38,809 nt of DNA from Bacillus sp. ISL-37. Lineage in GTDB: Bacteria; Bacillota; Bacilli; Bacillales; Cytobacillaceae. The notes under the pieces were generated by a model. It did no database searches. It was not told where the DNA came from and was given only the letters and a program-made list of their open reading frames with translations. Position 1 is the first letter of the stretch; each line of letters opens with the position of its first letter. The translations under genes and the position numbers were made by a program. Shown here in pieces: positions 3,872 through 33,064 of this stretch. The stretch covers positions 28,966-67,774 of the forward strand of contig NZ_JAGGQL010000042.1 of the NCBI RefSeq assembly GCF_018613315.1. The letters run 5' to 3'.

Positions 3872-4017
3872 AGACAGCTTTTCCTCTTTTTCCTCTGAAC
3901 CTGTCCGAAGTTGCTCCGGCTTCTGATAGCTTTTCTGCTTTTTCCTCTGAACTTGTCCGAAGTTGCTCTGACTTCTGACAGCTTTTCTGCTTTGTCCGCT
4001 GAAATTGTCCGAAGTTG
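3872..4017. repeat. 52-bp tandem repeat array A (about 2.7 units)
   Basis: Units begin at 3876, 3928 and 3980, exactly 52 bases apart. TGTCC occurs at 3902, 3954 and 4006. AGACA, TGATA and TGACA occur at 3872, 3924 and 3976. Every step fits TGTCC, 17 bases, TGACA, 25 bases. The array fills the gap between the yfmR-like terminator and the start of the YpgR-like gene. Short ORFs across it are products of the repeat and look non-coding. Confidence 0.9.
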
Positions 4018-4039
4018 TAATGAGGTCCGTTTATAGATA

Positions 4040-4073
4040 AAAAAATAAGACCTGGGATTCCAGGTCTTATTCG
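4040..4073 (-). terminator. Terminator of the ABC-F gene, overlapping its stop codon
   Basis: AATAAGACCTGG, gatt, CCAGGTCTTATT is a perfect 12-bp stem with a four-base loop. On the minus strand it is followed by TTTTTTT. The 5' arm includes the TAA stop at 4067-4069. Confidence 0.92.
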
Positions 4074-5950
4074 TTTTCGGCGAGCTCTGATAAATAGCTC
4101 CATCTTTCAATTAGATACTCTAGCTGCTCATTCAACTCTTTCTCTTCATTCACCAGAGCCTCACCCTTTTCAAAATCACTCCCGATACTGGCCATTTCCC
4201 CCTGCACTTCCTCAAGGCGGGTTTCTGTACCAGCAATCTTATCTTCAATTTCTGCCCATTCTTTTTGCTCCTTGAAGCTCAGTTTCTTTTTCTTCGGTTT
4301 TTCTGTCTGCTCTACCTTTTCCTTCTTTGGCACTGAAGGGGCAGATTCAAGATTCGGCCGCTTTTCAAGGTACTCTGAGTAATTGCCGTAATGCAGGTCT
4401 GTCTGCCCATTGCCTTCCAGTACAAGCAGCAAATCGACAACCTTATCAAGGAAGTAACGGTCATGGGATACCGAGATAACGACACCAGGGAAGTCTTCCA
4501 GGTAATCTTCCAATACAGTTAATGTCTGTGTGTCCAAATCATTGGTTGGCTCATCCAGCAGCAGGACGTTTGGTTCTTCCATTAACAGCTTTAACAAATA
4601 GAGTCTGCGCTTTTCGCCTCCGGAAAGCTTCCTGATTGGAGTTCCATGTGCATAAGGCGGGAACAGGAATCTCTCGAGCATTTGTGCAGCTGAAATTGTC
4701 TTGCCATCAGTAGTTTGGACGATTTCTGCCGTTTCTTTCAGGTATTCAATTACCCGCTTATTTTCGTCCATATCTTCATTTTCTTGAGTATAGTAAGCTA
4801 TCTTTACGGTTTGTCCGGTGATGATTTCACCGTCATCAAGCATGATCCTGCCTGCGAGAATATTCAGCAAAGTCGATTTCCCTGTCCCATTTCGGCCGAT
4901 GATTCCCAGCCTGTCCCCAGGTTTCACAAGAAGATTGAAGTGATCCAGAATCACTTTATCTTCGTATTTTTTGGTTGCATCCTTCAGTTCAAGCACCTGT
5001 TTGCCCAGCCTGCTGCCACTCAAAGAGATGTCGAGTTTTTCAGAAGACTTCACATTTGACACTTCATCATCCAGTTTGTCAAAACGCTGGATGCGAGCCT
5101 TCTGTTTGGTTGTCCTCGCCTTAGCCCCGCGCCTGATCCACTCGAGTTCCTGTCTGAACAAATTCTTCTTCTTTTCAAGTGTTGCGGCTTCGTTCTCCTC
5201 TCGCATCGCCTTGGCTTCGAGGAAACTGGCATAGTTGCCTTTATAGCTATAAAGATTTCCACCATCAAGTTCAAAAATCCTATTCGTCACTCTGTCAAGG
5301 AAATAACGGTCATGGGTAACGAGCAGAAGTGACCCCGAATATCTGGATAGATAATCTTCAAGCCATTTTACTGTCTCATAATCAAGATGGTTCGTGGGCT
5401 CATCCAGAATCAGCAAATCTGGGGATTCAATCAAAACCTGAGCGAGTGCGACACGTTTTTTCTGGCCGCCGGATAGCTCCCCCATTTTTTTGGTGAAGTC
5501 AGAAATCCCAAGCTGCATGAGTATGGATTTGGCGGCAGTATTCGCATCCCAGCCATCAGAACTATCCATTCTCCGCTGCAAGTCATAAAATCTTTCCTGA
5601 AGTCCTGGATCATCAGGGTTTTTGCCCAATTCAGAGAGAATAATCTCATAATCTCTCATCAGCTTCAAGATTGGAGCGTCACCGCTGAAAACCTGATCAA
5701 GAACCGTTTTGTCATGTTCCATTTCAGGCTGTTGGGATAAAAATGAAATTTTATAGTCTTTCGCAAAGATAATCTCACCTGAATCAGCCTGGTCGATGCC
5801 TGCCACAATTTTAAGCAAAGAAGATTTTCCTGTTCCATTTACACCTAGTAAACCGACTCTTTCACGCTCGCCGATTGTAAAAGAAATCCCATTAAAAAGC
5901 TCTTTTTCTCCGTATGTTTTCGTCACGTTTTCAATCGTGATCATTTTCAT
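4067..5950 (-). CDS. yfmR: ABC-F family ATPase (YfmR/Uup-like)
   Basis: The 627 residues hold two ABC ATPase domains and no membrane segment, as expected for ABC-F proteins that act on ribosomes. Walker A motifs are GVNGTGKSS (residues 36-44) and GRNGTGKST (near 350). Signature motifs are LSGGQKKR and LSGGEKRR. Walker B is LLILDEPTNHLD and LLLDEPTNDLD. The charged C-terminal tail (about 540-627, rich in K and E) looks like the Uup coiled coil. Length and tail fit B. subtilis YfmR, reported to relieve stalling together with EF-P. The ATG overlaps the upstream HD gene stop as ATGA, giving translational coupling; a second ATG two codons in is possible. The choice of YfmR over other ABC-F members is moderately sure. 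Confidence 0.9.
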   Translation of the reverse strand: MKMITIENVTKTYGEKELFNGISFTIGERERVGLLGVNGTGKSSLLKIVAGIDQADSGEIIFAKDYKISFLSQQPEMEHDKTVLDQVFSGDAPILKLMRDYEIILSELGKNPDDPGLQERFYDLQRRMDSSDGWDANTAAKSILMQLGISDFTKKMGELSGGQKKRVALAQVLIESPDLLILDEPTNHLDYETVKWLEDYLSRYSGSLLLVTHDRYFLDRVTNRIFELDGGNLYSYKGNYASFLEAKAMREENEAATLEKKKNLFRQELEWIRRGAKARTTKQKARIQRFDKLDDEVSNVKSSEKLDISLSGSRLGKQVLELKDATKKYEDKVILDHFNLLVKPGDRLGIIGRNGTGKSTLLNILAGRIMLDDGEIITGQTVKIAYYTQENEDMDENKRVIEYLKETAEIVQTTDGKTISAAQMLERFLFPPYAHGTPIRKLSGGEKRRLYLLKLLMEEPNVLLLDEPTNDLDTQTLTVLEDYLEDFPGVVISVSHDRYFLDKVVDLLLVLEGNGQTDLHYGNYSEYLEKRPNLESAPSVPKKEKVEQTEKPKKKKLSFKEQKEWAEIEDKIAGTETRLEEVQGEMASIGSDFEKGEALVNEEKELNEQLEYLIERWSYLSELAENE

Positions 5951-6591
5951 GCCTTACCATTCCATTCACTGTAAAATTGATCTAGGAAAGTCTCCATGAA
6001 CTGGTGTCTTTCCTTAGCAAGTTGTCTCGCTTGCTCCGTATTCATTTTATCTTTAAGCTTCAATAGCTTCTCGTAAAAATGATTGACCGAGGAACTGTCG
6101 CCATTCCTGTATTCTTCCAGCGTCATTTTCCCCCTGACATTAAGGTCAGGCTCGTAGATCGGATGGCCCTTCTTTCCGCCGAAGGCAAACGTCCTTGCAA
6201 TCCCGATCGCACCAAGGGCATCGAGACGGTCAGCGTCCTGAACAATCTCCGCTTCGATACTATCGAGCTCAATCACCCTGCCGCCTTTATAGGAAACTGT
6301 TCCGATACAACCTTTTATCCTTGAAGAGATTTCACTATCTAATTGTATGCTTTGAAAAAATGAATCTAGTTTCATCCATCCGGCTTCTTCCGATTCATTC
6401 AATTTATCATCTGGAATGTCGTGGAGCAAGGCGGCCATTTCAATGATGAACCAGTCACCCTGCTGTTCTTTGCTCCATATCAGTCTGGCGTTCTTCCTGA
6501 CTCTGTCAATATGGTGCCAGTCATGTCCCGAAGAATCCTTGCCAAGCTCATTTTTGACAAACTCCTCAGCCATTGCTATTTTATCTCTCAT
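5947..6591 (-). CDS. HD-domain hydrolase, YpgQ-like
   Basis: This is a 214-residue HD-superfamily metal-dependent phosphohydrolase. GHDWHHIDRVRKNA supplies the first His, LLHDIPDDK the HD pair, and DADRLDALGAIGIART the last Asp. This resembles B. subtilis YpgQ, a Mn-dependent enzyme acting on nucleotides. The substrate here is inferred from family only. I chose the ATG at 6591, which has AGGTG six bases upstream. A GTG three codons earlier (6600) is open but sits too close to its possible SD. The gene overlaps the ABC-F gene by four bases, so the two form an operon. Confidence 0.88.
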   Translation of the reverse strand: MRDKIAMAEEFVKNELGKDSSGHDWHHIDRVRKNARLIWSKEQQGDWFIIEMAALLHDIPDDKLNESEEAGWMKLDSFFQSIQLDSEISSRIKGCIGTVSYKGGRVIELDSIEAEIVQDADRLDALGAIGIARTFAFGGKKGHPIYEPDLNVRGKMTLEEYRNGDSSSVNHFYEKLLKLKDKMNTEQARQLAKERHQFMETFLDQFYSEWNGKA

Positions 6592-6713
6592 ATTCTGCAC
6601 CTACTTTCCTACCGAACTCATTTTACCATATATAGTGAGGAGAGATAGCTGGATAAATATTAGGAAGCGTAAAATGCAGTCAGTACTATTACGTTTGTTT
6701 AATAACAGCCTGT

Positions 6714-6971
6714 CTATCGGACACTTTCTTCAGATTCTCCTCTCTGTTTGTCCATTAGAGACCTTCTATCGGACACTTTCTCCAGATTCTCCTCTCTGTT
6801 TGTCCATTAGAGACCTTCTATCGGACACTTTCTACAGATTCCGCTCTCTGTTTGTCCATTAGAGACCTTCTATCGGACACTTTCTCCAGATTCTGCTTTC
6901 TGTTTGTCCGTTAGAGACCTTCTATCGGACACTTTCCTAGATTCTTCTCTTTGTTTGTCCGTTAGAGGCTT
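6714..6971. repeat. 52-bp tandem repeat array B (5 units)
   Basis: Units start at 6714, 6766, 6818, 6870 and 6922. Each has GGACA, 25 bases, TGTCC, then 17 bases to the next GGACA; the last unit is two bases short. Units are 85-98% alike to the eye. The array lies between the degV terminator and the HD gene start. The rest of the 6592-7035 gap shows no gene. Confidence 0.95.
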
Positions 6972-7033
6972 ACTATCCAAACATTCTCTATAAATTACCG
7001 AAGTAAGTCGATTGGATCTTTTTTACCGGACCA

Positions 7034-7060
7034 AAAGAAAAAGTGCCAAATCGGCACTTA
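7034..7060 (-). terminator. Terminator of degV, overlapping its stop codon
   Basis: AAGTGCC, a five-base loop and GGCACTT, followed on the minus strand by TTTTTCTTTT. The stem takes in the TAA at 7058-7060. Confidence 0.88.
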
Positions 7061-7906
7061 TGCATCTGCATTATTCCAGCTAATCCCTATTGTATGTTCA
7101 CCAGCATGTACTCCGATTACAGCTCCAATAGGACAGCTGAGGAAACGGATATCCGGAAATCTTGCTTCGAGCTGGCTTTGCCATTCGTCTGCAGCCTCTT
7201 TATGCAGGCCGTAAAGAATGTACACTTCCTTAACTCCATATTTCTCGTGAGATTGGTTCAAATAATTGAATATTTTCTCGCGGGCTTTATTATCACTGCG
7301 GACCTTTTCCTTTGTATTCAAAACGCCATCTTCAATACTGATGATAGGTTTGATATTTAGCATGCTTCCGAGATAGAATTGCATGCCTGACATACGGCCG
7401 CTTCGATGCAGCTGCTCAAGGCTCCCGATCATGACATAGGTTTCATTGGATTCACGGATGATTTCCAGCTTCTCCTTGATTTCATCGACTGATGCTCCCT
7501 GGTCAGCTAATGCTATTCCTTTTTTTAATAGAGACGTCAATGGATATGTGAGAATTTTAGAATCAAAGGTAATGACAGGAATGTTAACATCTTGTTCAGC
7601 CTGTACACTTGAGGCGACAGTTCCGCTTAGTTTGGATGAAATCAGGACTGAGAATACGAGGTCATACTCTTTTTCAAGTTTCTTATAAAGTTCCATAAAG
7701 ACTCCCACAGGCGGCTGTGAGGTTTTAGGAGGTGTTTTGACCGATTTTAATCTTTTATATAGCTCTTCTGCAGTCAGATCTTTTCCATCAAGGTATTCTA
7801 CATCATCCAAAACAATGGTCATTGGTACTTGATATACATCAGGATGGTTCTTTAACTCTTCATCCAGATAGGCTGTACTATCAGTAACCCAGGCGATTTT
7901 CTTCAA
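7058..7906 (-). CDS. DegV family protein
   Basis: The 282 residues match the DegV (EDD) fold. These proteins bind a fatty acid and, in Firmicutes, present it to the FakA kinase for incorporation into phospholipid. Typical blocks are VTDSTAYLD at the N-terminus, the KTSQPPVG loop and SLEQLHRSGRMSG. A TTG start is used, with GGGGGAG five to six bases upstream. It appears monocistronic: it has its own terminator and a 215-base upstream gap in which I see nothing definite. Which fatty acid it binds cannot be told from sequence. The B. subtilis regulatory gene degV and this paralogous family share the name, so I give no symbol. Confidence 0.93.
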   Translation of the reverse strand: MKKIAWVTDSTAYLDEELKNHPDVYQVPMTIVLDDVEYLDGKDLTAEELYKRLKSVKTPPKTSQPPVGVFMELYKKLEKEYDLVFSVLISSKLSGTVASSVQAEQDVNIPVITFDSKILTYPLTSLLKKGIALADQGASVDEIKEKLEIIRESNETYVMIGSLEQLHRSGRMSGMQFYLGSMLNIKPIISIEDGVLNTKEKVRSDNKAREKIFNYLNQSHEKYGVKEVYILYGLHKEAADEWQSQLEARFPDIRFLSCPIGAVIGVHAGEHTIGISWNNADA

Positions 7907-8089
7907 ACAATCTCCCCCTATTTCACTTTTTCAGTTCTATTGAATATCGTGGTTTTTAGTTATCCGCCAATTCCCCTTTAATAAGTGACAGAAATGCTTG
8001 TACAAATCATGCGATACCTTCACCACAATTAGAACTTTTATATTATATGTTTAAATCTATCTGTTAATAGACTATTCTGAAAACAACAC

Positions 8090-8120
8090 AGAAATTCCTG
8101 CCTCGGAGACAGGAATTATT
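8090..8120 (-). terminator. Hairpin after the 176-residue gene
   Basis: AATTCCTG and CAGGAATT flank CCTCGGAGA, giving a nearly perfect 25-base palindrome a few bases past the stop at 8123. The T-run on the minus strand is poor, so termination is likely but not certain. Confidence 0.5.
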
Positions 8121-8122
8121 AT

Positions 8123-8653
8123 TCACTCAATAATTTTTTTGATTTTTTCCAGTGAAGCTATCATATAATCCACCATTTCTGATAAATCGTCAATCTGTTC
8201 TTCATACACAAGACGGTTGAAGGAAACCTGCACACGGCTTTTGATAGTTGGTTTATCTCCCAATGGGTCAAGCAAGGCGGTTTGCACTATCGCCCGATTT
8301 CTTCCCCATATTTCTTCAAGCCCTTTATTAACTTCCTTAAAAACAACCATTTCATTTTTATGATGAATTGAGAAAGAAATATTCACTTTACACCCTGCAA
8401 GCTGTTTGGCTTTCACACTTTCCAATAGCTCCGCAGAGAGGTTCTCCAATCCGGCCTCAATGGTCATCATTGCCGATAAAAGATCCGGTTCATAACCTGT
8501 TTTAGTGAATGAAATTTCATATTTACGCGACAGCTTGGCGGCATTAATCCAGTCATTGCGGTCAATCACAATAATTTCTCCGCTCAAATCCCTGTCATAT
8601 ATATCGCCTTCGATTACGACTTTAATGTTTTCATAAGCGGTCGGGTCAAACAA
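8123..8653 (-). CDS. Uncharacterised 176-residue protein
   Basis: I do not recognise this gene. It has clear coding character and an SD of AAAGGAG about ten bases before a TTG start. The protein is soluble with no signal peptide. It has mixed alpha/beta character with an acidic N-terminus (IEGDIYDRDLSGEIIVIDRNDW) and a helical C-terminus ending in KIKKIIE. Two blocks, KVNISFSIHHKNEMVVFKE and SRVQVSFNRLVYEEQ, look like related beta hairpins, hinting at an internal duplication. It lies downstream of fhs on the same strand, but a structured element with a T-run separates them. That makes an independent or attenuated transcript possible. Confidence 0.8.
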   Translation of the reverse strand: MFDPTAYENIKVVIEGDIYDRDLSGEIIVIDRNDWINAAKLSRKYEISFTKTGYEPDLLSAMMTIEAGLENLSAELLESVKAKQLAGCKVNISFSIHHKNEMVVFKEVNKGLEEIWGRNRAIVQTALLDPLGDKPTIKSRVQVSFNRLVYEEQIDDLSEMVDYMIASLEKIKKIIE

Positions 8654-8699
8654 AAGTTACCACTCCTTTCACCAGCCGTAATCATGCCTTTTTACCAAA

Positions 8700-8787
8700 T
8701 TAAAAAATGGTCAGCCCAATCTGCACAACGTCGCACCTGATAGAAAAAACAATCTCACGTCGACACTATGCCTGGCAAGACTGACCA
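8700..8787 (-). ncRNA. Candidate structured RNA / terminator between fhs and the 176-residue gene
   Basis: On the minus strand an outer stem TGGTCAG (8781-8787) / CTGACCA (8708-8714) encloses an internal loop. Inside it an 11-pair stem forms from GCATAGTGTCG (8761-8771) and CGACGTTGTGC (8723-8733), with three G-U wobbles and a 27-base apical loop. TTTTTTA follows the outer stem. The G-U pairs make it a structure only as minus-strand RNA. It could be the fhs terminator, a 3' UTR element, or an attenuating leader of the gene downstream. I cannot assign it to a named RNA family. Confidence 0.45.
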
Positions 8788-8801
8788 AGGTTTTGTATTA
8801 C

Positions 8802-10496
8802 TTAGAACAATCCAACAGCGTTGCCCTCTTCATCAACATCCATATTCAATGCTGCCGGAAGCTTCGGTAAGCCAGGCATTGTCATGACTTCACCTGTCAA
8901 TGCAACGATGAATCCTGCACCTACTGATGGCTTCAGTTCCCTTACTGTGATGGTGAAGCCTGATGGCCTGCCAAGTTTTTGCGGATCATCTGATAAAGAA
9001 TATTGAGTTTTTGCCATACAAACTGGCAGCACACCCCAGCCAAACCCTTCAAAGTCAACGAGCTGCTTCTTCGCTTTCGGTGAAAACTCGACTCCGTCAG
9101 CACCATAAACCTGTGTGGCAATCGTCTTGATTTTGTCTTCAAGTGAATCAGACAGGTCATATAGGTGGGCAAAGGTGTTTTCACTTTTTTCAATTACATC
9201 AAGAAGTTTCTCTGCTAGCTCTACTCCTCCGTTGCCGCCGTTTTCCCATACTTCAGTCAAGGCAACCGGGATTCCTGCATCCTCACACATCTCTTTCAAT
9301 GTATTTGTTTCAAGCTCTGTATCTGTAATGAATCGATTAATCGCAACTACATATGGCAAGCCAAAGCTTGCAATCGTCTCGACATGCTTTTTCAAGTTTG
9401 TGAAACCATCTCTTAAAGCTTTAACATCCTCGTTGACCAATTCCGTTTTCTTCATGCCACCATGCATTTTCAGAGCGCGGATGGTTGCCACAATCACCAC
9501 AGCTGAAGGATCAATTCCTGCAGTTCTTGCTTTGATGTTCAAGAACTTTTCAGCGCCAAGATCAGCACCGAACCCTGCTTCCGTAACGACAAAGTCAGCA
9601 AGCTTTGACGCAGCCTCTGTCGCGATGACACTGTTGCATCCATGTGCGATATTAGCAAATGGACCACCATGGATCAATGCTGGAGTGTGTTCGATTGTCT
9701 GGACAAGATTTGGCTTGACTGCTTCCTTTAATAAAAGAGTCAAAGCCCCTTCTACTCCTAGGTCGCCCACCGTAACAGGCTGCTTGTCATAATTATAAGC
9801 AACAACCATCTTTGAAAGACGCAGTTTCAAATCCTTCAGGTCACTCGCAAGGCAAAGGACAGCCATAATCTCAGACGCAACCGTAATATCGAAGCCATCC
9901 TCACGAGGAACTCCCTGCATTGGCCCGCCAAGTCCAACGATCACTTTTCTTAGTGCACGGTCATTCAGGTCTAGCGCACGCTTCCAGACAATCCTGCGCT
10001 GGTCAATGTTCAGCTTGTTTCCTTGCTGCAGATGATTATCAATCAAAGCAGCCAGCGCATTATTCGCTGTAGTAATTGCATGCAGGTCACCTGTGAAGTG
10101 AAGGTTGATATCCTCCATCGGAAGCACCTGTGCAAAACCTCCGCCTGTTGCGCCTCCTTTGATCCCCATAGTTGGTCCAAGAGATGGCTCACGCATAGCA
10201 ATCATTGTTTTTTTACCAAGCTTGTTCAATGCATCTGCAAGTCCGACCGTTACTGTAGATTTCCCTTCCCCTGCAGGAGTAGGATTAATCGCAGTTACAA
10301 GTACCACCTTGCCACTTTCTTTTGTTTTCAATTTAGCCAAAGCTTCTGAAGACAGCTTCGCTTTATACTTACCAAACAGCTCAATTTCATCGGCATCCAG
10401 GCCAATGCTTGCTGCAATATCAACAATCGGCTTCATTTTACTGTCACGAGCAATTTCAATATCTGACTTAACTTGAATATTTGTTCCCATTTCCAA
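8802..10496 (-). CDS. fhs: Formate--tetrahydrofolate ligase
   Basis: Fhs joins formate to tetrahydrofolate using ATP, giving 10-formyl-THF for purine and one-carbon metabolism. At 564 residues it is full length. The P-loop TPAGEGKST is at residues 73-81, and [19 protein letters not shown] and [15 protein letters not shown] are family signatures. The ATG at 10496 follows GGGGGGA by six to seven bases; ATG two codons later is a weaker alternative. It diverges from metA across about 170 bases. I found no riboswitch ahead of it. Confidence 0.98.
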
Positions 10497-10601
10497 TCCC
10501 CCCAGATATTCTCTATATGCTTACCAACTTATATTTTACCATCAGAGAAATACTATCAGGTAAAAAATATTTATTTGTCATAAAATTTCCTCTTTAGCCA
10601 A

Positions 10602-10630
10602 TTGCTCCGCAAAAGAATTCAGACTATAAT
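10602..10630 (+). promoter_or_regulatory. Sigma-A type promoter of metA
   Basis: TTGCTC (10602-10607), 17 bases, then a perfect TATAAT (10625-10630). Transcription would start about 35 bases ahead of the metA TTG, leaving no room for a SAM riboswitch. Confidence 0.6.
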
Positions 10631-10670: not shown

Positions 10671-11579
10671 TTGCCAATAAAAATCCCGCTGCATCTGCCA
10701 GCGAAAGAAATACTTGAAAAAGAAAATATTTTTATCATGGATGACAGTCGTGCTGCCAAACAGGATATCCGACCGTTGAATATATTGATTTTGAATCTGA
10801 TGCCCGAAAAAGAAAAAACAGAGAGACAGCTGCTGCGGCTGCTTGGCAATACGCCACTCCAGGTGAACATAACTTTTTTAAAGACCGCTACCTATGATTC
10901 AAAAAATACATCAAAATATCATCTGGATGAGTTTTATCAAACCTTCGATCAAGTAAAAGAAAAGAAATATGACGGCATGATCATAACCGGTGCACCAATC
11001 GAACTATTGGAATTTGAGCAAGTAAACTACTGGGATGAACTGAAGGAAATCCTTGACTGGACTGAACGGAATGTCACGTCCACCTTGCACATATGCTGGG
11101 GAGCACAGGCTGCTTTATATCATCACTATGGCATAAATAAATTCGTCCTTGCCAGGAAGTGCTCAGGCGTATTCACCCACAGAGTCCTTGACCATACCGA
11201 AAAGCTTCTAAGAGGGTTCGACGATGAATTCATTGCTCCTCATTCAAGGAATACTGATATTTCCAAAGAGGCATTGCAAAACCATCCACAACTTAAGCTA
11301 TTGGCCTCATCAGATGAAGCAGGCGCCTTGATAATTTCCAGCAAAGACAGCAGAAGAATCATGATTACCGGCCACCTTGAATACGAAGCCACAACACTTG
11401 CGGAAGAATACTTAAGAGATAAGGAAAAAGGCATAGAAATTGTCATGCCAGAAAACTATTTCCCACAGGATAATCCTGATATAAAACCGACAAACCGCTG
11501 GAGGTCACATGCCCATCTGTTCTTTTCCAATTGGCTGAATTATTATGTATATCAGGAAACTCCATATGAGTGGGATTAG
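10671..11579 (+). CDS. metA: Homoserine O-acetyltransferase, MetA family
   Basis: MetA acylates the homoserine hydroxyl in methionine synthesis. The open frame extends upstream to 10602, but the start is the TTG at 10671, which has GGGAGG seven bases before it and gives 302 residues. This numbering puts the catalytic Cys at 142 (HICWGAQ) and Glu at 111 ([10 protein letters not shown]), exactly as in characterised Bacillus MetA. Glu111 marks acetyl-CoA-using enzymes, whereas Gly111 marks succinyl-CoA users such as E. coli. The gene is alone on the plus strand with its own promoter and terminator. Mechanism of methionine control is not visible here. Confidence 0.95.
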
Positions 11580-18401: not shown

Positions 18402-18605
18402 TAGTACCCTCCTCTGAGCTTTAATAGACTTGTAGATTTAATATCTTTTTGCTCTCTATTTACATTTCAAGCAAAATTAAATAGAGTATTATTAAGAAAA
18501 TAATAACAAATTTTTCCGGAAATAGGAACAAAAGCGAAATGATTTTCAATTTATTTTAAATTAACAAAATTTTAAGATTATTTAGTTTGTAATGCGCTTA
18601 CATTC

Positions 18606-18635
18606 TTGACTGATTGAATCCCAATATTGTATATT
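18606..18635 (+). promoter_or_regulatory. Promoter of cspD with a long 5' leader
   Basis: TTGACT (18606-18611), 18 bases, TATATT (18630-18635). The transcript would have a leader of about 110 bases before the ATG at 18756. Long leaders that fold differently in the cold are characteristic of csp mRNAs. The remainder of the 18402-18755 gap is AT-rich and shows no gene. Confidence 0.6.
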
Positions 18636-18755
18636 TAAGACATCATTTAATAGAATATATTTGTCATTTCAAAATTGCGGGTGTATCGATTAGATGATAA
18701 TATTCAACTTTGGCACATATTTTGTGTCGCGAAAGACATGGGAGGAAAGTTTAAC

Positions 18756-18956
18756 ATGCAAAACGGTAAAGTAAAATGGTTCAACAATGAAAAAGGTTTC
18801 GGTTTCATCGAAGTAGAAGGCGGAGACGATGTATTCGTTCACTTCTCAGCTATCCAGGGCGACGGATTTAAGTCACTAGAAGAAGGTCAAGAAGTTTCTT
18901 TTGAAATCGTTGAAGGAAACCGTGGACCACAAGCTGCTAACGTAGTAAAACTATAA
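18756..18956 (+). CDS. cspD: Cold-shock protein
   Basis: This is a 66-residue single cold-shock domain that binds single-stranded RNA and DNA and melts RNA structure. Both RNA-binding motifs are present: KGFGFIEV (RNP1) and VFVHFSAI (RNP2), plus the opening [11 protein letters not shown]. The open frame runs upstream to 18675, but the real start is the ATG with GGAGG ten bases ahead (18741-18745); the extra 27 residues lack family homology. The name cspD is chosen because ypeQ and ypeP follow in the same order in B. subtilis as I recall it. By sequence alone CspB, CspC and CspD are hard to separate. Confidence 0.95.
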
Positions 18957-18967
18957 TTAAAAAAGTT

Positions 18968-18998
18968 GAAGGCTGGCGCCAGGCGCCAGCCTTTTTTG
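18968..18998 (+). terminator. Terminator of cspD
   Basis: GGCTGGCGCC, one base, GGCGCCAGCC (18971-18991), followed by TTTTTT: a very GC-rich stem just past the stop codon. Confidence 0.95.
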
Positions 18999-19029: not shown

Positions 19030-19342
19030 TGTCCATTTGAATTGGCTTTTTTGGACATTTCATTTTCCCTCATCCACTGAAATGTCCATTAAGTTCACTT
19101 TCTTAGACATTTTGGCTTCATCCTTCCGCTGAAATGTCCATTAAATTCACTTTCTTAGACATTTCGCCTTCATCCTTCCGCTGAAATGTCTATTAAAAGC
19201 ACTTTCTTAGACATTTCGCCTTCATCCTTCCGCTGAAATGTTTATTAAAAGCACTTTCTTAGACATTTCGCCTTCGAACTCATGCTGAAATGTCCATTAA
19301 ATTACGTTCATGGACTTTTCGGCTTTGAATGTCTTTAACCGT
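19030..19342. repeat. 52-bp tandem repeat array C (about 6 units)
   Basis: TGTCC or its variants TGTCT and TGTTT start at 19030, 19083, 19135, 19187, 19239 and 19291: one step of 53, then four of 52. GGACA or AGACA follows after 17 bases (18 in the first unit). The arms extend to GACATTTC / GAAATGTC, giving a possible 8-9-bp hairpin across the 25-base side. The array lies between the convergent cspD and ypeQ genes. Confidence 0.92.
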
Positions 19343-19548: not shown

Positions 19549-20205
19549 TTATAATATCTGCATCTTACTGTTGATCATTTTACCCTGTAATGCCTGTGTG
19601 GCCAGTTTATCCGCTTCTTTATTTTCTTTCCTGCCTACAGGATTGTATTTCGGATACAATCCAAGTTCCTTGATCTTATTCTCGATTCTGTCGAGCCAAC
19701 GGTTGAGGGTTTCTTCATAGCAAGGCCACTCCCCTTCGAGCTGCTTCAAAACAACCTGGGAATCACCTTTTATATCGCAGGTCATGTTCCGGACACCCAT
19801 TTCTTCAAGGATGGTAAGGGCAAAATATAGAGCGGCGTATTCTGCTTCATTATTCGTTTCAAGTTCATCGAAAACTTCATTGGCACGCAGTCTGTACTTC
19901 TTCTTTCCTTGTTTGAAGTAGATTATGGTCCCGAGTCCTGCTTTAAGATTAAAGTTATCAAAACCACCGTCAAAAAAAACGGTAAGGTCATGAGGTTCTT
20001 CTTCTACTTCTTCTAGGAGCTTTCGCATTTCCTTTAATGTCCACGAAGTACCGATTTCATCTATGAAAGAAATTTCACCAGCTCTACCCGATTTTTCTAA
20101 TTCTTCACCAGCCTGCAGCGCATGCTCGCCATCAAGGAAATCAGAGCTGAATAGGATGGGATCAATGCCTTTAGCTTTGTATTCCCACTCCAATTTATAT
20201 TTCAT
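19549..20205 (-). CDS. YpeP-like RNase H-fold protein with an N-terminal extension
   Basis: The protein has 218 residues. An N-terminal domain of about 70 (LEWEYKAKGIDPILFSSDFL...EEVEEEP) precedes an RNase HI-type domain. The catalytic acidic set is visible: Asp in VFFDGGFDN, Glu in TNNEAEYAAL, Asp in IKGDSQVV and Asp in KENKEADKLA. All four are kept, so hydrolysis of RNA in RNA-DNA hybrids is possible. Bacillus relatives are annotated 'reverse transcriptase-like', reflecting the RNase H domain only; no polymerase domain exists here. The ATG follows GGGGGAG by five to six bases. It is divergent from the second RNase H gene. Confidence 0.88.
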   Translation of the reverse strand: MKYKLEWEYKAKGIDPILFSSDFLDGEHALQAGEELEKSGRAGEISFIDEIGTSWTLKEMRKLLEEVEEEPHDLTVFFDGGFDNFNLKAGLGTIIYFKQGKKKYRLRANEVFDELETNNEAEYAALYFALTILEEMGVRNMTCDIKGDSQVVLKQLEGEWPCYEETLNRWLDRIENKIKELGLYPKYNPVGRKENKEADKLATQALQGKMINSKMQIL

Positions 20206-25197: not shown

Positions 25198-25205
25198 CTT
25201 TGCAC

Positions 25206-28200: not shown

Positions 28201-28862
28201 ACACTTTGCTTAAACTGATTAAAAGACAATTCTGCATCCTGATGTTTGTCAACCTGGTTGATAATCAAGTAAAGTTCTTTTCCTGCGTCCGTTAATTCCT
28301 TTGTAAAAAGGAAATTAAGTTCTGATTGAACATGGTTATAATCCATCATATAAAAAACGATGTCTGACAGATGGAGAGCAGATTCAGTCGCTATGCGGTG
28401 GGCATCATCAGTAGAATCAATTCCCGGTGTATCCATGATGACTGCCTGTTCCAGGAACTCGGCCCCATTATGGCTGATTTCAATAGCCTGGATTTGTTCA
28501 CCATCCTTACAGTACGTCTTGACGGTTTCATAATCATACGGAGCCGGATACAGACGAGACCCGCCGTCTTTAAAGATGACCTTAGCATATTCAGAGCCTG
28601 ATTTGATCCTCACCAGATTCGCACTGGTTGGGATTGGGCTTGACGGCAGGATGTTGTCACCGATCAATTTGTTGATCATGCTCGATTTCCCTGCAGAAAA
28701 GTGTCCGCAAAAAGCGATTGAAAATTCTTCTTCAACTGCTTTCCTACCCAATTCCTTTGCTTTTTCTGCTGTATCTTCGTCGTTATTTGTATTCATTAAA
28801 TTATATAAAGATAAAATCTTTCCAAGAAGCTTTTGATCTTGCTGTGTAATAGTCTGGCCCAT
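25206..28862 (-). CDS. dynA: Bacterial dynamin-like protein DynA (YpbR)
   Basis: At 1218 residues this is a fused double dynamin. Each half has a GTPase and long helical stalk. The first GTPase has G1 GHFSAGKSS (residues 53-61), G3 DTPGIDS and G4 NQVD. The second has G1 GAFSAGKSS (near 645), G3 DTPGADS and G4 NAVD. The two-headed layout and size match B. subtilis DynA, which tethers and fuses membranes and helps cells survive membrane stress and phage release. The frame opens seven codons earlier at a TTG, but AAGGGG lies eight bases before the ATG at 28862, so that is the start. It leads an apparent operon with the two genes downstream. Confidence 0.96.
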   Translation of the reverse strand: MGQTITQQDQKLLGKILSLYNLMNTNNDEDTAEKAKELGRKAVEEEFSIAFCGHFSAGKSSMINKLIGDNILPSSPIPTSANLVRIKSGSEYAKVIFKDGGSRLYPAPYDYETVKTYCKDGEQIQAIEISHNGAEFLEQAVIMDTPGIDSTDDAHRIATESALHLSDIVFYMMDYNHVQSELNFLFTKELTDAGKELYLIINQVDKHQDAELSFNQFKQSVEDSFADWGVKHAGIFYTSLKYPESPHNQFQELRSFIMERKGKRKEILPVSIFKSLEKLSEDHLASLHQNVAEEIDQFETILEGISDSERQQLSVDLDDIRKHIEKIQVERDPEREFRDGLNDILKNAYLMPFQTRELAEAYLQSRQPDFKVGLLFSKQKTEQERSARLDNFYRELEDKVQSQLDWHIKDFLSKLIKKHNLSQTELQAAANGFKIEFQKELLSDAVKPGARLSGDYVLNYTNDVAEALKNLARRRLEPIKGQFIDHVKGHDDEEVNELLKKEENLEKLLSAWKALDSTQENLSQQRRLVSEILYGEPAEYKEEDFLIFKVAEDEPEVIINSDSVSANTTREKTVPSVEAPVEQVGNGIEQFHEEQQQLVGKMNFTSEQIEAIPGLKKIARELKDKAARLKEREFTVALFGAFSAGKSSFANALVGERILPVSPNPTTAAINKIKPVTTEYPHGTVIVKIKSSDELLKELDRSLGLFGKNTSDFERAIDQINSLKSEDSGYSAAEKTHYSFLQAFAKGFSDFKNSFGEKLLVDFESFRGYVAEEEKSCFVEWIEVYYDCDLTREGITLVDTPGADSINARHTGVAFDYIKNSDAILFVTYYNHAFSKADREFLIQLGRVKDTFELDKMFFIVNAVDLANSEEEQEAVLEYVEGQLVQYGIRNPHLFPVSSLKGLNGKLENESGGDHLFNQFEKAFYTFIANDLMNMAVEAAEAKWRQAVGTIEEMISSAEEDKAAKADRRRKLLSEKEEMLRILSQKKSAVLEERLNLEADELTYYIRQRLFIRFGDFFREAFNPALLKDDGRNMKKALEAALDELIESIGYDLAQEMRATSLRTEAFIIRVLKEFQEALLSELLKINSSVSISATDSGPLAGIEFETAYQNIDRTKFRKTLGMFKNPKSFFEKNEKKLMADELEKLLHGPAGEYLEEENARLKNHYQPELVREFVKVQEDFSEQITEYFEGITSALDDNFSIDTVKRALLNIKNFNKG

Positions 28863-29007
28863 TCCTCTAACCCCTTGTGACAAAATTGTGAATAACTTTA
28901 TTTTATATGATTTTTCGGTCTTTTCCTATAATTTCATTTTCGTCCCTTAGAAAAAGTAATGAAAAGCACATTAATTGCTCCAGTAAAGCACAAACAGGGA
29001 CAAAAAG

Positions 29008-29036
29008 AAAAAGCCCGAACCTAAGCCCGGACTTTC
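29008..29036 (-). terminator. Minus-strand terminator upstream of dynA
   Basis: AAGTCCGGGC, ttag, GTTCGGGCTT pairs over ten positions with G-U wobbles, then TTTTTCTTTTT on the minus strand. It ends the transcript coming from bpsA-bpsB and the short remnant, so dynA has its own promoter. Confidence 0.75.
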
Positions 29037-29059
29037 AATCTAAATGAGAATATAGTTTA

Positions 29060-29197
29060 TTAATGAGGTTTTAGTACATTGCTCAATACATATTTCATAA
29101 GTAAGGAATAAGCAGCTATAGTCGAAACAACTAACATGGAAACCATTGGTACGACACCATCCTTAAGGTTCTTTTTTAACTGAGAATTATTTTCATC
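29060..29197 (-). pseudogene. Short membrane-peptide frame that has lost its start codon
   Basis: A 45-codon open frame reads DENNSQLKKNLKDGVVP, then a hydrophobic segment VSMLVVSTIAAYSLLMKYV, and ends NVLKPH. A stop codon sits directly before it and there is no ATG, GTG or TTG at its head. One base out of frame is ATGAAAATAATT (start at 29196), which stops after six codons. Adding a single G (ATGGAAAATAAT) would join the two as MENNSQLKK. A one-base deletion, or a sequencing error, is the simplest reading. Alternatively a 28-residue peptide starts at the internal ATG near 29146. It lies between bpsB and a terminator; no family is recognised. Confidence 0.35.
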
Positions 29198-29244
29198 TTA
29201 AGAAAAGTGTAGCACTATTGATTATCATTTTCAATGGAAGGAGA

Positions 29245-29814
29245 TTAATTGTCACACTTATTTAACAAATTCGGGACGAAACGCCCCTGATTGGAGAATT
29301 CAGATTCATATTTTGTCAACTCTCTCAATGCCTTCTCCTCTGCAGGAATTCTGATAGATAAAATAAGGATATTCAACAAAGTAAAGACCGCCATTGTGAT
29401 ATAAGCATTGAACATCAATGGAATCACAATCAACTCGATCGCAACAATCAAATAGTTTGGATGCTTGATGATCTTATAAGGACCTCTTTTTACGACATTA
29501 GCCCCGGGAAGAATGATGATCTTTGTATTCCAGAACCTACCCAAAGAAGCTAGTGCCCAAATTCTCATTGCCTGTGTAAAAATAAACAGAGCAAGCAAGA
29601 CAGGCCAATAATCTGAAAGGTTTTTATCCAATAGGATCACTTCCAGAATAAAAGATATGAAAAAAGCTGTATGGATCGACACCATCGCAGGATAATGCCC
29701 CTGGCCGAATTCTACGGCTCCCTGATCTTTCATCCAGGCCTCATTTTTTCTGGCGATGACCAGTTCTGTTATCCGCTGAAAGATAATCAATCCGACAAAT
29801 ATGAGGAACACCAC
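29245..29814 (-). CDS. bpsB: Alkylpyrone methyltransferase BpsB (YpbQ), ICMT family
   Basis: The 189-residue integral membrane protein belongs to the isoprenylcysteine carboxyl methyltransferase family. It has about five hydrophobic segments and the SAM-binding block VVKRGPYKIIKHPNYLIVAIE, followed by IPAEEKALRELTKYESEF. In B. subtilis BpsB O-methylates the alkylpyrones made by BpsA. It starts (GTG at 29814 or the adjacent GTG at 29811) one base past the bpsA stop, with GGGAG a few bases upstream, so the pair is translationally coupled. Confidence 0.92.
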   Translation of the reverse strand: MVFLIFVGLIIFQRITELVIARKNEAWMKDQGAVEFGQGHYPAMVSIHTAFFISFILEVILLDKNLSDYWPVLLALFIFTQAMRIWALASLGRFWNTKIIILPGANVVKRGPYKIIKHPNYLIVAIELIVIPLMFNAYITMAVFTLLNILILSIRIPAEEKALRELTKYESEFSNQGRFVPNLLNKCDN

Positions 29815-29815
29815 G

Positions 29816-30901
29816 TTACTCCCACCTCATCAATAGCAATTCCGAGCTAAAACCTGGACCAAGTGCAGCACCCAGTCCAAGATCTCCTGCCTTCGCTGTC
29901 TCCATGAACCTTCTTAATACATATAGTATGGTCGCAGAAGACATATTCCCGTATTCTTTTAAGACGTCCAGGGAAGTCTCGGTCATTGTTTCAGGAAACT
30001 TCATGGCAGAAACGTAGGCTTCCAATACTTTCTTACCTCCTGGGTGCGCAATAAAATGATCAAGATCTGGAACATCAAGACCATTGGTATTTAAAAACCT
30101 TAAGACATTTGGCTGAAGCCAGTTTTGAATGATCGTCGGTATATCCTTCGAAAATACGACATACAATCCCTCATTCTTCACTTCCCATCCCATAACATCT
30201 TCAGAATCAGGCATCGTTGTGGACTGTGTCCCGATAATATTAGGTGCAGCATCTTTTTTCATTATATTTTCATAGCCAGAATCATCACCACAGACCAGGG
30301 CACAGGCAACCCCGTCTGCAAACAATGAAGTTCCGATCAGGTTGCTCTTTGATCGATCGTTCCGCTGGAAGGTTAAACTGCATAATTCAACGGATAGCAC
30401 AAGTACTTTCGCCTTCGGGTAGGCCAGGCAGTACTCATAAGCACGCGAAAGCCCGCTTGCCCCTCCTGCACACCCGAGGCCCCAAATCGGAATCCTTTTA
30501 GTGTATTGTGATGATGGCAATATATTCATTATTCTCGCATCAATACTAGGAGTCGACACACCTGTGCTGCTGATGGTAAAAATAGCATCGATCTCTTCAA
30601 GGGGGACTTCGTCTTTTAAAAATACATCACTCTTCAGGCAATTAGAGATCGCTTTTGCCCCAAGTTCCACAGCTGCCTCGATATAGGCATTATTCTTCTC
30701 TTCAAAAGTATGGTCACTTTCAAACCAATCAAGATCTTTGGCAAAATGGCGTTTCTCGATTTGGCCGTTCTGGAAAACGGTGAGCAGCCTATTTATATCC
30801 TTAAAGGATTCCTTGAATAGCTTTTCTGCGAAATCCATTACCTTTTCTTGTTCTATTGTAAATGGCGGCAATGCTTCTGCAATGGATATGACTCTTGGCA
30901 T
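29816..30901 (-). CDS. bpsA: Type III polyketide synthase BpsA (BcsA), alkylpyrone synthase
   Basis: This is a 361-residue chalcone-synthase-fold enzyme that extends long-chain fatty acyl-CoA with malonyl-CoA to tri- and tetraketide alkylpyrones. The catalytic triad is Cys144 (WGLGCAGGASGLS), His286 (DHFIAHPGG) and Asn319 (EYGNMSSAT), and the C-terminal GLGAALGPGFSSELLLMRW is typical. The ATG follows GAGGAGAG. That SD is inside an inverted repeat with an upstream partner (see 30904-30958). The older name bcsA is misleading, as it has nothing to do with cellulose. The biological role of the pyrones is uncertain; membrane or spore lipids have been considered. Confidence 0.95.
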   Translation of the reverse strand: MPRVISIAEALPPFTIEQEKVMDFAEKLFKESFKDINRLLTVFQNGQIEKRHFAKDLDWFESDHTFEEKNNAYIEAAVELGAKAISNCLKSDVFLKDEVPLEEIDAIFTISSTGVSTPSIDARIMNILPSSQYTKRIPIWGLGCAGGASGLSRAYEYCLAYPKAKVLVLSVELCSLTFQRNDRSKSNLIGTSLFADGVACALVCGDDSGYENIMKKDAAPNIIGTQSTTMPDSEDVMGWEVKNEGLYVVFSKDIPTIIQNWLQPNVLRFLNTNGLDVPDLDHFIAHPGGKKVLEAYVSAMKFPETMTETSLDVLKEYGNMSSATILYVLRRFMETAKAGDLGLGAALGPGFSSELLLMRWE

Positions 30902-30903
30902 GT

Positions 30904-30958
30904 TATACTCTCCTCACATCTATGTACGGTTACTTTTTCCATTTACCCAGAGAGTATA
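30904..30958 (-). promoter_or_regulatory. Inverted repeat that could hide the bpsA ribosome binding site
   Basis: On the minus strand TATACTCTC (30950-30958) is the exact complement of GAGAGTATA (30904-30912). The second arm overlaps the bpsA Shine-Dalgarno GAGGAGAG, five bases before the ATG. If both are on the mRNA, a 9-bp stem with a 37-base loop would block initiation. It could instead be a two-site operator. Confidence 0.35.
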
Positions 30959-30983
30959 CAGTCAAACTAGCTTAGACTAAAAC

Positions 30984-31019
30984 GAAAAAAAAAGCTTTCC
31001 CCACAATCGGGGAAAGCCT
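30984..31019 (-). terminator. Terminator downstream of the SDR gene
   Basis: GCTTTCCCC, six bases, GGGGAAAGC, followed on the minus strand by nine T. It isolates bpsA from the SDR gene upstream. Confidence 0.9.
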
Positions 31020-31228
31020 AACGTTTTGAAGGAGTTGCTGTGCAAGTTCATTATACAATGCTCTCTTGCCTTATACATTATAAAATCTTTACCAGTTGAC
31101 AATCGATAGGTCTTTAACAAAATCATTCATGTCAGTGACCTTTTTCGGGTAAAAGCTCCTTCCTTTAAACCGTAAAGATGCTATTCGGATTAAGAAGAGC
31201 TCCTTTGAGTAATTCTACCTTCTCTTGA
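31020..31228 (-). other. Long 3' region after the SDR gene, with a possible 13-codon ORF
   Basis: Between the SDR stop and its terminator lie about 210 bases with no standard gene. On the minus strand AAAGG, eight bases, ATG opens a 13-codon frame (31089-31130, MNDFVKDLSIVNW). Just upstream another frame reads SDQEKVELLKGALLNPNSIF before a stop. Both look somewhat protein-like and could be decayed coding sequence. Two TATAAT-like hexamers (minus strand, near 31080 and 31055) lack good -35 partners. Confidence 0.25.
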
Positions 31229-32002
31229 TCAGAATCCGTGAATCGTCATACCTCCGTCGACGAATAAAGTTTGGCCTGTCACATAGTTTCCTGCGTCAGA
31301 ACTTAGGAAGACAACTGGTCCTACCAGCTCAGGCAATTCCCCAATTCTCTTCAACGGCGTTACTGCAAGGATGTCTTCAACATACGCTTCATCTGCCAAT
31401 AGCTTTTCAGTCAGAGGTGTTTTGAAATACCATGGACCAATTGAATTCACATTAATACCGTATTGTCCCCATTCCATCGCGAGCACCTTTGTCATCTGCA
31501 TTAGGGCTGCCTTAGTTGCCGCATAGACGACACCGGTCCTAAGGGCTACTTGCCCCGCTACAGACGCGATATTGATGATTTTGCCTCCTGATTGCTGTCC
31601 CTTCATGACTTTCCCGGCTTCCTGAGACATCATGAAGGCTGATTTTAAATTGGTATCCATGATCGTTTGCCATTCTTCATCCGTCGCCTCTAATGCCTTG
31701 GAACGGATATTCATGCCAGCATTATTGACAAGTATATCAATCTTTCCCCATTCAGTGCGTACTGCTGAAATTGATTTATGTACTTGATCCCTATTTGTTA
31801 CATCTGTTGGGAGCACGAGAGTTTTATTCCCTAATTTTTCAATTACCGATGAAGTTTCCTTAAGATCCTCCTCCGTTCGTGCAAGTAAGGCAACATTTGC
31901 TCCAGCTTCAGCAAGTCCGATCGCAATCGCCCTGCCAATCCCTCTTCCCGCACCAGTCACTACTGCCGTTTTACCCTTCAAATCAAAAGATGGCAAAAAC
32001 AT
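31229..32002 (-). CDS. Short-chain dehydrogenase/reductase (SDR) family
   Basis: The 257-residue classical SDR has TGAGRGIGRAIA (about 15-26) for cofactor binding and NNAGMNIRS. The catalytic Ser is in NIASVAGQ, and VYAATKAAL gives Tyr-X3-Lys. The ending TGQTLFVDGGMTIHGF is typical. ALLARTEEDL after strand 2 lacks a clear Asp, so NADP may be preferred (inference). Relatives are often annotated 3-oxoacyl-ACP reductase or gluconate 5-dehydrogenase; the substrate is open. Three ATGs are in frame at the start. The one at 32002 has GGAGG nine bases upstream and is chosen over 32011 and 32008. It may follow the zinc-ribbon gene at 32104, but a terminator intervenes. Confidence 0.9.
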   Translation of the reverse strand: MFLPSFDLKGKTAVVTGAGRGIGRAIAIGLAEAGANVALLARTEEDLKETSSVIEKLGNKTLVLPTDVTNRDQVHKSISAVRTEWGKIDILVNNAGMNIRSKALEATDEEWQTIMDTNLKSAFMMSQEAGKVMKGQQSGGKIINIASVAGQVALRTGVVYAATKAALMQMTKVLAMEWGQYGINVNSIGPWYFKTPLTEKLLADEAYVEDILAVTPLKRIGELPELVGPVVFLSSDAGNYVTGQTLFVDGGMTIHGF

Positions 32003-32079
32003 ACACATCATCCTCCTGCTCTAAATTGACTTAATTTTAACATAATACGCAGGAAAATTAGGTTTACTCGCCTGGCAAA

Positions 32080-32104
32080 AGAAAAAGCACCAAACCAGGT
32101 GCTC
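32080..32104 (-). terminator. Terminator of the 41-residue zinc-ribbon gene
   Basis: AGCACC, six bases, GGTGCT, then TTTTTCTTTT on the minus strand, starting directly after the TAG stop. Confidence 0.85.
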
Positions 32105-32229
32105 TATTTCTCGTTGGACTGATTTTGCACCTCAATCCAGATTTGTTTTTCTGCTGCTCCGCCACATTTTTTACATAATCGCACTTCATCATATATGAGG
32201 CGGCAATGTTCACAATAAAACTTTTGCAT
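32104..32229 (-). CDS. 41-residue zinc-ribbon protein
   Basis: This frame was found by hand: MQKFYCEHCRLIYDEVRLCK, then KCGGAAEKQIWIEVQ and NQSNEK. Two Cys-X2-Cys pairs (Cys6/Cys9 and Cys19/Cys22) spaced by nine residues form a classic rubredoxin-like zinc knuckle pair. AGGAAGTGG lies upstream of the ATG. It has its own terminator and reads as a complete gene. I do not know a named family; such tiny ribbons may bind RNA or another protein. Confidence 0.75.
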   Translation of the reverse strand: MQKFYCEHCRLIYDEVRLCKKCGGAAEKQIWIEVQNQSNEK

Positions 32230-32439
32230 ATTTACCACTTCCTGAAAGATCCATTTTCTATTAGTTTATTAGCTTTGCGCAGAATGGTGATACCTGTTTT
32301 TCATAAAACCTAATGATGTTAAAAGAGGTAGCTAATTACCTTTGATCCTAGTTAGATTTAAAGTTTTTTAATTTCTGGATGATTATGGTCGCTAGTTTTA
32401 GGACTAAGCATTTAGACGTCAAAAAGATCACTGTTATTT

Positions 32440-33064
32440 TGACAGGTTTGATGATGAAGTGGACAAAGCTGTCATGATTAATCTGTTTTTTTGACAGCTT
32501 TGATGGCGAATTGGACAAAGCTGTCATGATTCCTCTGCTTTTTTGACAGCTTTGATGGTGAAGTGGACAAAGCTGTCAAAATTACTCTGCTTTTTTGACA
32601 GCTTTGATGGTGAAGTGGACAAAGCTGTCATGATTCCTCTGCTTTTTTGACAGCTTTGATGGTGAAGTGGACAAAGCTGTCAAAATTACTCTGCTTTTTT
32701 GACAGCTTTGATGGTGAAGTGGGCAAAGCTGTCATGATTCCTCTGTTTTTTTGACAGGTTTGATGGTGAAGAGACCAAAGCTGTCATGATTCCTCTGTTT
32801 TTTTGACAGCTTTGATGGTGAAGAGACCAAAGCTGTCATGATTCCTCTGTTTTTTTGACAGGTTTGATGGCGAATTGGACAAAGCTGTCAAGATTACTCT
32901 GTTATTTTGACAGGTTTGCAGGTGAAGAGACCAAAGCTGTCATGATTCCTCTGTTTTTTTGACAGCTTTGATGGTGAAGAGACCAAAGCTGTAATGATTC
33001 CTCTGTTTATTTGACAGGTTTGCAGATGCAGAGACCAAAGCTGTCATGATTCCTTTGTTCTCCA
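32440..33064. repeat. 52-bp tandem repeat array D (12 units)
   Basis: TGACA occurs at 32440 and every 52 bases up to 33012, twelve times with no insertion or deletion. TGTCA (one TGTAA, one or two other changes) follows each after 25 bases, and the next TGACA after 17. The arms extend to TGACAGCTTTG / CAAAGCTGTCA, an 11-bp inverted repeat with a 13-base loop, in the best units. Two unit subtypes (AAGTGGACAAAG and AAGAGACCAAAG) are clustered, suggesting block duplication. The array lies between the divergent zinc-ribbon gene and oxidase operon. 32230-32439 shows no gene. Confidence 0.97.

Follow-up and report, generated by a model that had tools for sequence, protein, structure and literature searches.

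Tandem 52-bp arrays with a shared inverted skeleton in a Mesobacillus genome and other Bacillales: candidate phased protein-binding sites

Two kinds of tandem repeat, one of 52 nucleotides (nt) and one of 20-21 nt, have been described in Bacillus as constant in size but variable in sequence (Subirana and Messeguer, PMC8161180). The published catalogue lists 82 repeats for B. selenatarsenatis, with many families common to B. boroniphilus and B. subterraneus, and reports no 51-53-nt repeats in B. subtilis. Its authors deny conservation of sequence between species, remark that a repeat can contain short signals together with their reverse, and give no known function; they offer two proposals for the 52-nt repeats, namely a protein polymerising on DNA or small RNAs (PMC8161180). 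The present analysis concerns four tandem arrays (A to D) in a stretch of 38,809 nt from Bacillus sp. ISL-37 (contig NZ_JAGGQL010000042.1, positions 28,966 to 67,774), hereafter the window. A previous reading of this DNA, made from the letters alone and referred to below as the sequence-only reading, knew of no named element with the rule that the arrays obey. That claim does not hold, since repeats of constant 52-nt length and variable sequence were already in print for this species group, and the window arrays belong to that published but unexplained kind.

The 52-bp unit: exact spacing and taxonomic spread

Tandem Repeats Finder (TRF) called four arrays in the window, each with a period of 52 and 0% indels (Table 1). 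The sequence-only reading ascribed to all four one period and one skeleton, TGTC(C/A), 17 bases, (G/T)GACA, 25 bases. Their co-occurrence is far above chance: the window has 15 strict matches to the pattern TGTC[CA]N17[GT]GACA, whereas 100 dinucleotide shuffles averaged 0.07 and never exceeded 1. The claimed unit-by-unit fit was, however, overstated. Placed base by base, and with degenerate end units taken in, strict units number 1/4 in array A, 4/7 in B, 0/5 in C and 10/11 in D, so that period and skeleton stand but the (C/A) and (G/T) positions fail in array C. There, four of the five units end in AGACA rather than (G/T)GACA, and two start with TGTCT or TGTTT. In array A one unit has TGATA at 3924-3928 and both end units are without one arm; array B ends with a single 51-bp step; one unit of array D has TGTAA. 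The rule is better stated as TGTC-N19-GACA-N25, with no more than a preference at the next base. The same reading had correctly noticed that TGACAGCTTT is common to A and D and TGTCCATTA to B and C. The window as a whole holds four unlike 52-bp classes, and further classes are found in other stretches, a set that includes the window and five stretches of the source genome (G000:C3) with known arrays.

The rule was then examined in 135 loci (2.56 Mb) chosen without the motif; pattern-fetched loci were removed from this set, and L020 was dropped as near-identical to L014. If many other periods had turned up, the sequence-only reading would have put the shared rule down to chance or simple slippage. 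Of 79 tandem arrays with a period of at least 25, 54 are of the 52 class (periods 51-53, 102-106 or 153-159), 17 have periods of 39-42 bp and 8 have others. TGTC-N19-GACA lies inside 25 of the 54. In evenly spaced stretches of the one-contig genome G007 (400 kb, within the same loci), 8 of 16 arrays are of the 52 class and 6 have periods of 39-42. Spacing is exact on both sides of the core. There are 164 copies of TGTC-N19-GACA and 173 of GACA-N25-TGTC. All other gaps between 0 and 79 average 25.5 and 24.8, respectively, with a maximum of 44 in each case, once gaps 71 and 77 are set aside; these two reach the next unit and are themselves raised to 134 and 154. The neighbouring gaps 18, 20, 24 and 26 yield only 23, 26, 21 and 34. 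Among 66 steps shorter than 120 bp between strict sites, 63 are of 52 bp, two of 104 and one of 51. A larger set of 3.15 Mb agrees (447 and 470 sites; 210 of 234 steps of 52 bp), though it is partly motif-selected, holding pattern-fetched loci (L001-L010 and most of one set of stretches) and some overlaps.

A second class of intergenic array is present in the same genomes. It consists of direct repeats each of 20-21 bp (TRF period 40-42), with cores such as TATAGCGA, TCGACCAC and TCGCCAATAA, and has been published as the 20-21-nt repeats (examples in Table 1).

The window encodes an RNase-HI-like protein that is 99% identical to proteins of Mesobacillus selenatarsenatis SF-1 and Bacillus sp. 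ISL-55; judged by this protein, the source genome is a Mesobacillus close to M. selenatarsenatis. The gene also served as the anchor for fetching 80 relatives. It is of note that three of these (L015, L031 and L033), whose proteins are 90, 72 and 70% identical to the window protein, like those of Bacillaceae, bear titles that look wrong (Chryseobacterium sp. ISL-80, Paenibacillus sp. FSL R5-0490 and Pseudomonas sp. ISL-84, respectively).

In the source genome (4.74 Mb, 62 contigs) the single-unit pattern matches 486 places and its reversed control 15; the two-unit pattern matches 313 places and its control none. The two-unit pattern was found in 20 of 21 genomes of the genus, the source included, with 14 to 382 places in the positive ones. 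In the family, 126 of 193 genomes have it, representing 16 of 25 genera; in the sample drawn from the order, the figures are 61 of 397 and 30 of 135. Reversed-pattern controls gave zero throughout these searches. In a phylum sample of 299 genomes, which also held three others from the same order, the source genome alone was positive, and no match came from outside the order, where the sample held 288 phylum and 7 class genomes. Nor was any 52-class array seen in 332 kb from outside the order, or any two-unit match in the viral contigs scanned. The exception within the genus is G012, a congener of completeness 100, which lacks two-unit TGTC sites genome-wide and shows no array of the 52 class in the 200 kb covered (L172-L182).

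Dyad symmetry, conserved footprint and genomic setting

Inverted-repeat geometries were compared with shuffles for the consensus unit of each array. Base-centred axes are favoured in 60 arrays with TGTC. The 34 arrays without TGTC favour such axes too, the best window lying 4-13 bp from the axis (t 9.1, against at most 4.3 for between-base axes); the 60 and the 34 include some orthologous or overlapping copies, so that t values are upper limits. As a test on independently gathered data, we turned to the consensuses of Table 1 in PMC8161180, using 25 out of 27 and leaving out two of 54 nt. For windows that begin 3 or 4 bp out from a base-centred axis they reach a t of 9.7, again an upper limit because some are alike; gap-centred axes do not go above 2.2. 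TGTC-N19-GACA itself is present in five of the 25, from four species.

The arms are better kept than the rest of the unit, both within arrays and between species. Within 46 TGTC arrays, 340 units in all, mean pairwise differences amount to 0.022 in TGTC/GACA and 0.072 in the inner arms, against 0.215 in the 7-bp centre, one of the most variable parts, and 0.22 in the middle of the spacer. The arrays were found by their core, which is therefore favoured; the inner arms and outer flanks played no part in the finding. Folded on the dyad, the conserved block in 48 TGTC arrays extends from 4 to 17 bp with sharp edges (neither set includes arrays whose consensus core is broken or that have too few units in register). 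Its centroid, at 10.67 bp (95% interval 10.27-11.28), places half-site centres 21.3 and 30.7 bp apart. The helical repeat of DNA being about 10.4 bp per turn, these distances amount to some 2.05 and 2.95 turns, which fits the suggestion of the sequence-only reading that every arm could be met on one face.

For array C, which has orthologues in other Mesobacillus, the comparison was extended to other species, using the consensus from the window and from four relatives (L011, L012, L014 and L016). Differences number 4 in 120 inner-arm, 10 in 80 outer-flank, 13 in 70 centre and 82 in 170 mid-spacer comparisons; the core gives 0 in 80 by construction, as only intact-core units entered the consensus. 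Spacer length is kept between species while spacer sequence is largely replaced. The period census and the arm comparison were the two outcomes on which the sequence-only reading had staked its case that the shared rule is neither chance nor plain slippage, and both went in its favour.

The two arms also change together. Covariation was scored in 49 aligned 35-mers, corresponding to 49 of 59 distinct 27-mers (ten, mostly near-duplicates, were left out by hand). Standard pairs fill 77.3% of cells at the 14 dyad pairs, of which four are invariant by design because all 49 rows carry TGTC and GACA by selection; shuffles are paired in 62.1% and slid versions in 34.8-43.0%. The covariation score is 0.402 against 0.157 in shuffles, and cells changed on both sides number 131 against 61. 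None of 500 shuffles reached the observed value of any of these three measures.

Arrays seem to be gained and lost as blocks. Among 74 gaps orthologous to that of array C, at least three units are present in L011, L012, L014, L016 and L020, and one site each in L015, where it looks like a remnant, L029 and L041; TGTC-N19-GACA is absent from the other 66. The L013 gap retains about half a unit, and the L032 gap has an array with a related core. In that gap of L032 (titled Cytobacillus firmus; 10890-11069), 3.5 units sit within the loop of a CAGTGGG..CCCACTG palindrome, which belongs to another dispersed element, and in the same gap of the closely similar L031 (titled Paenibacillus sp.) this loop is empty. 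A further element of about 150 bp, with CCTTTACGGGCAGT, is in tandem at L079 14387-14715, and similar words occur in the L031 gap.

The arrays are non-coding: only one of 86 falls inside an open reading frame (ORF) called on unmasked sequence. Genes around arrays were called with stop-rich filler as the mask, N masking having let ORFs run through. After eight orthologous or duplicate records were dropped from the 76 with both neighbours called, 68 arrays could be classed by neighbour orientation as 48 co-directional, 13 convergent and 7 divergent (p values below are uncorrected). Divergent gaps are under-used (7/68 against a null of 286/1271, p 0.016), enrichment in convergent gaps is not significant (13/68, p 0.20), and co-directional arrays lie closer to the 3' end of the upstream gene in 33 of 48 cases (p 0.013). 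In the window, arrays A and B are co-directional, C is convergent and D divergent.

If a transcript fold were selected, G.U mismatches should outnumber A.C on the sense strand. In the inner-arm pairs of 29 co-directional arrays there is no such excess (43 G.U, 56 A.C): nine arrays lean to G.U, 15 to A.C and five tie, and the data rule out an illustrative 3:1 bias to G.U (p 2e-11), with the caveat that units in an array are not independent. The 25-base side of these arrays has 104 G.U and 118 A.C. Six divergent arrays have 9 G.U and 7 A.C in the inner arms and 20 and 27 on the 25-base side, where 11 convergent arrays have 38 and 45.

Table 1. Arrays, neighbouring genes and other elements; positions are those of the window unless a locus is named.
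Feature	Position	Strand	Copies	Class	Setting	Basis
Array A	3869-4017		2.9 of 52 bp	TGTCCGAAGT..ACTTCTGACAGC		TRF, unit placement
Repeat protein gene	2645-3772	-			flank of array A	family matches sub-cut-off only
ABC-F ATPase gene	4067-5950	-			flank of array A
Array B	6697-6982		~5 of 52 bp	TGTCC[AG]TTAG..CTATCGGACA		TRF 6713-6967, 4.9 copies
Phosphohydrolase-like gene	5947-6600	-			flank of array B
DegV family gene	7058-7906	-			flank of array B
Array C	19030-19342		~5 of 52 bp	TGTC[CT]ATTAA..TTAGACATTT	gap between cold shock (+) and RNase-HI-like (-) genes	TRF 19073-19325, 4.9 copies
cspD-like cold shock gene	18675-18956	+			left of array C	NCBIfam
RNase-HI-like gene (PRK07708)	19549-20205	-			right of array C	NCBIfam
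Array D	32431-33064		~12 of 52 bp	TGTCATGATT..TTTTGACAG[CG]TTT..AAAGC	1.5-kb gap	TRF 32431-33059, 12.1 copies
SDR gene	31229-32011	-			flank of array D
Cytochrome-oxidase-like genes	from 33517	+			flank of array D
cspA-type thermoregulator leader	18585-18996	+			with the cspD-like gene adjoining array C	Rfam RF01766
T-box leader	37252-37483	-			at start of gene 35806-37290	Rfam
20-21-bp repeat sites	L134 1-174; L115 200-308; L123 3332-3425 and 9148-9264; L104 10874-10986

A putative binding array and its rivals

We propose that the arrays are phased binding arrays for a putative dyad-recognising DNA-binding protein, and put the probability of this at roughly one half. In the unit of 52 bp a pair of inverted half-sites, each some 14 bp long (4 outer bases, then the TGTC core, then 6 inner bases), flanks a centre of 7 bp, and a free spacer of 17 bp comes after the pair. 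From one half-site centre to the next the distance alternates between about 21 and 31 bp, or about 2 and 3 helical turns, a spacing that puts all half-sites on one side of the DNA. The arrays could accordingly be viewed as tandem operators on which a dyad-symmetric protein, or protein family, would assemble side by side along one face. Half-site preference would drift among arrays and species, with both half-sites following. Such a protein would presumably oligomerise on the array and might make of it a bound domain or an insulator-like block, mostly in the 3' flanks of genes.

A broader version of the proposal is distinctly more tentative. Bacillales may have an unrecognised, genome-wide DNA-binding system in which one protein family occupies alternating inverted half-sites 2 and 3 turns apart, its specificity turning over between species so that hundreds of sites are rewritten while the geometry is kept. 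A loose parallel is PRDM9, whose specificity turns over in mammals.

A number of observations weigh against binding arrays of this sort. First, the geometry is not uniform. Only 14 of the 25 printed consensuses reach z of at least 2 at 4-13 bp, four of 50-51 nt not being among them, and a clear dyad is not shown by every 52-nt family. The footprint of seven non-TGTC arrays is noisy, with a centroid of 11.84 and no confidence interval. Two measures of covariation are no higher than in shuffles because the columns are so variable: 10 pairs are changed on both sides, and there are 33 further pair types. Second, there are difficulties of setting: gene calls followed a simple longest-ORF rule, array D is itself in a divergent gap, and the inner arms of the 11 convergent arrays show 12 G.U to 5 A.C, albeit with an arbitrary sense strand. 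Published searches of RNA-sequencing data showed the repeats to be transcribed in B. coagulans (PMC8625621). Third, the arrays are dispensable, since G012 does without them. The protein responsible was not found, gene content not having been compared between G012 and its congeners. Finally, conservation of the arms may reflect their use as substrates in some process of amplification.

That last point leads to the main rival, a selfish minisatellite, which we consider unlikely but the best placed of the alternatives. Here the arms would be substrates of an amplifying or recombining activity and only units with intact arms would be copied, for example through hairpin-primed template switching or at a tyrosine-recombinase-like site with two arms and a 7-bp centre. 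With its layout of 14-7-14 bp the conserved block does resemble recombinase sites such as lox (13-8-13), and template switching can perfect palindromes without selection. Arrays also appear and shrink, as shown by array C (present in five relatives, reduced in L013 and L015, without a site in 66 of 74 gaps) and by the palindrome loop that is filled in L032 and empty in L031. On the other hand, recombining sites usually require matching centres, whereas few parts of the unit vary as much as the 7-bp centre, and neither mechanism requires a free spacer of constant length. The search for a cognate enzyme covered Y1 transposases only.

A function at the RNA level is less likely again, and we regard it as improbable. 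Transcribed arrays of 27-nt hairpins would in that case act as small RNAs, as sponges or as protectors of mRNA 3' ends. Small RNAs are one of the options in print (PMC8161180), the B. coagulans transcription would agree with them, and so would the siting of co-directional arrays towards the 3' end of the upstream gene. Pieces of the four window arrays fold more stably than the average shuffle, whichever strand is taken (z -2.1 to -6.4; only -0.7 for the minus strand of array A), but stable folding on both strands is what any dyad must give. The co-directional arrays lack the expected sense-strand excess of G.U, and a hairpin needs no exact 25-base linker. Of the two Rfam gathering matches in the window, the T-box and the cspA leader, neither is in an array; a scan of the surroundings of array D returned two terminator-like and four promoter-like sites, none of them inside the array and the counts near those of shuffles.

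Mobilisation by a Y1 transposase, as for repetitive extragenic palindromic (REP) elements and their associated transposases (RAYT), is very improbable. Many-copy intergenic palindromes that are fewer in divergent gaps would suit it, and Y1_Tnp matches exist in 18 of 21 genomes of the genus, but their presence does not follow the arrays: PF01797 is unmatched in the array-bearing source genome (313 two-unit sites), G019 (36) and G020 (347), and has four matches, some with stops, in array-free G012. Chance or simple replication slippage, with period and arms unconstrained, can claim the differing unit numbers among related species but is already contradicted by exact spacing on both sides in motif-independent loci, by arm-specific conservation and by order-wide recurrence with zero reversed-pattern controls, and is the least credible of all.

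The 52-nt repeats, constant in length and unlike in sequence, have been termed enigmatic. The skeleton, the 14-7-14 footprint with its 2- and 3-turn spacing, and the evidence against an RNA role make of this puzzle a definite bait for a candidate binding protein. Array-free G012 offers a natural comparison for locating the responsible gene. The protein, if found, would count among the organisers of genomes in Bacillales, and one which B. subtilis, reportedly without 51-53-nt repeats, could not have brought to light.

Comparison with known repeat systems

A clustered regularly interspaced short palindromic repeat (CRISPR) array was considered and rejected: spacer middles within one array differ by only about 0.22 per site, which means that the spacers are not unrelated. 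The core sites of tyrosine recombinases (lox, FRT, dif) have two inverted arms about 21 bp apart, centre to centre, around a centre of 6-8 bp. The arrays are like them in having an inverted arm pair around a short centre, and unlike them in their hundreds of tandem copies, their variable centre and the exact distance to the next site. With REP elements and bacterial interspersed mosaic elements (BIMEs) they have in common that they are intergenic palindromes; these elements are not known to have an exact 52-bp tandem period, and the failure of Y1 transposases to track the arrays is a further difference from REP/RAYT systems.

The 20-21-nt Bacillus repeats are closer. They too are intergenic, have a constant length near two helical turns and are found in the same genomes. 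They differ in being direct repeats, of about 20.5 bp by TRF units, whereas the 52-bp arrays have alternating inverted arms.

The closest system by far is that of the published 52-nt repeats. The arrays are like them in period (51-53 with few indels; all 52 in the window, and 54 of 79 arrays in the motif-independent loci), in being non-coding, in forming several unlike families per genome, in their occurrence in Firmicutes, and in coming from a species group that is in the published Table 1 (M. selenatarsenatis, on the strength of the 99% identical anchor protein). A literature search on array words brought up nothing evidently related among the papers listed, judged by title and the opening of the abstract. 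The text and tables consulted (PMC8161180 and PMC8625621) contain no cross-genus skeleton, dyad geometry, covariation or footprint. TGTC-N19-GACA, in 30 of 135 genera of the order and in 5 of the 25 consensuses that the catalogue itself prints, goes beyond the published account, and the rule is a stronger regularity than those parts of the literature report.

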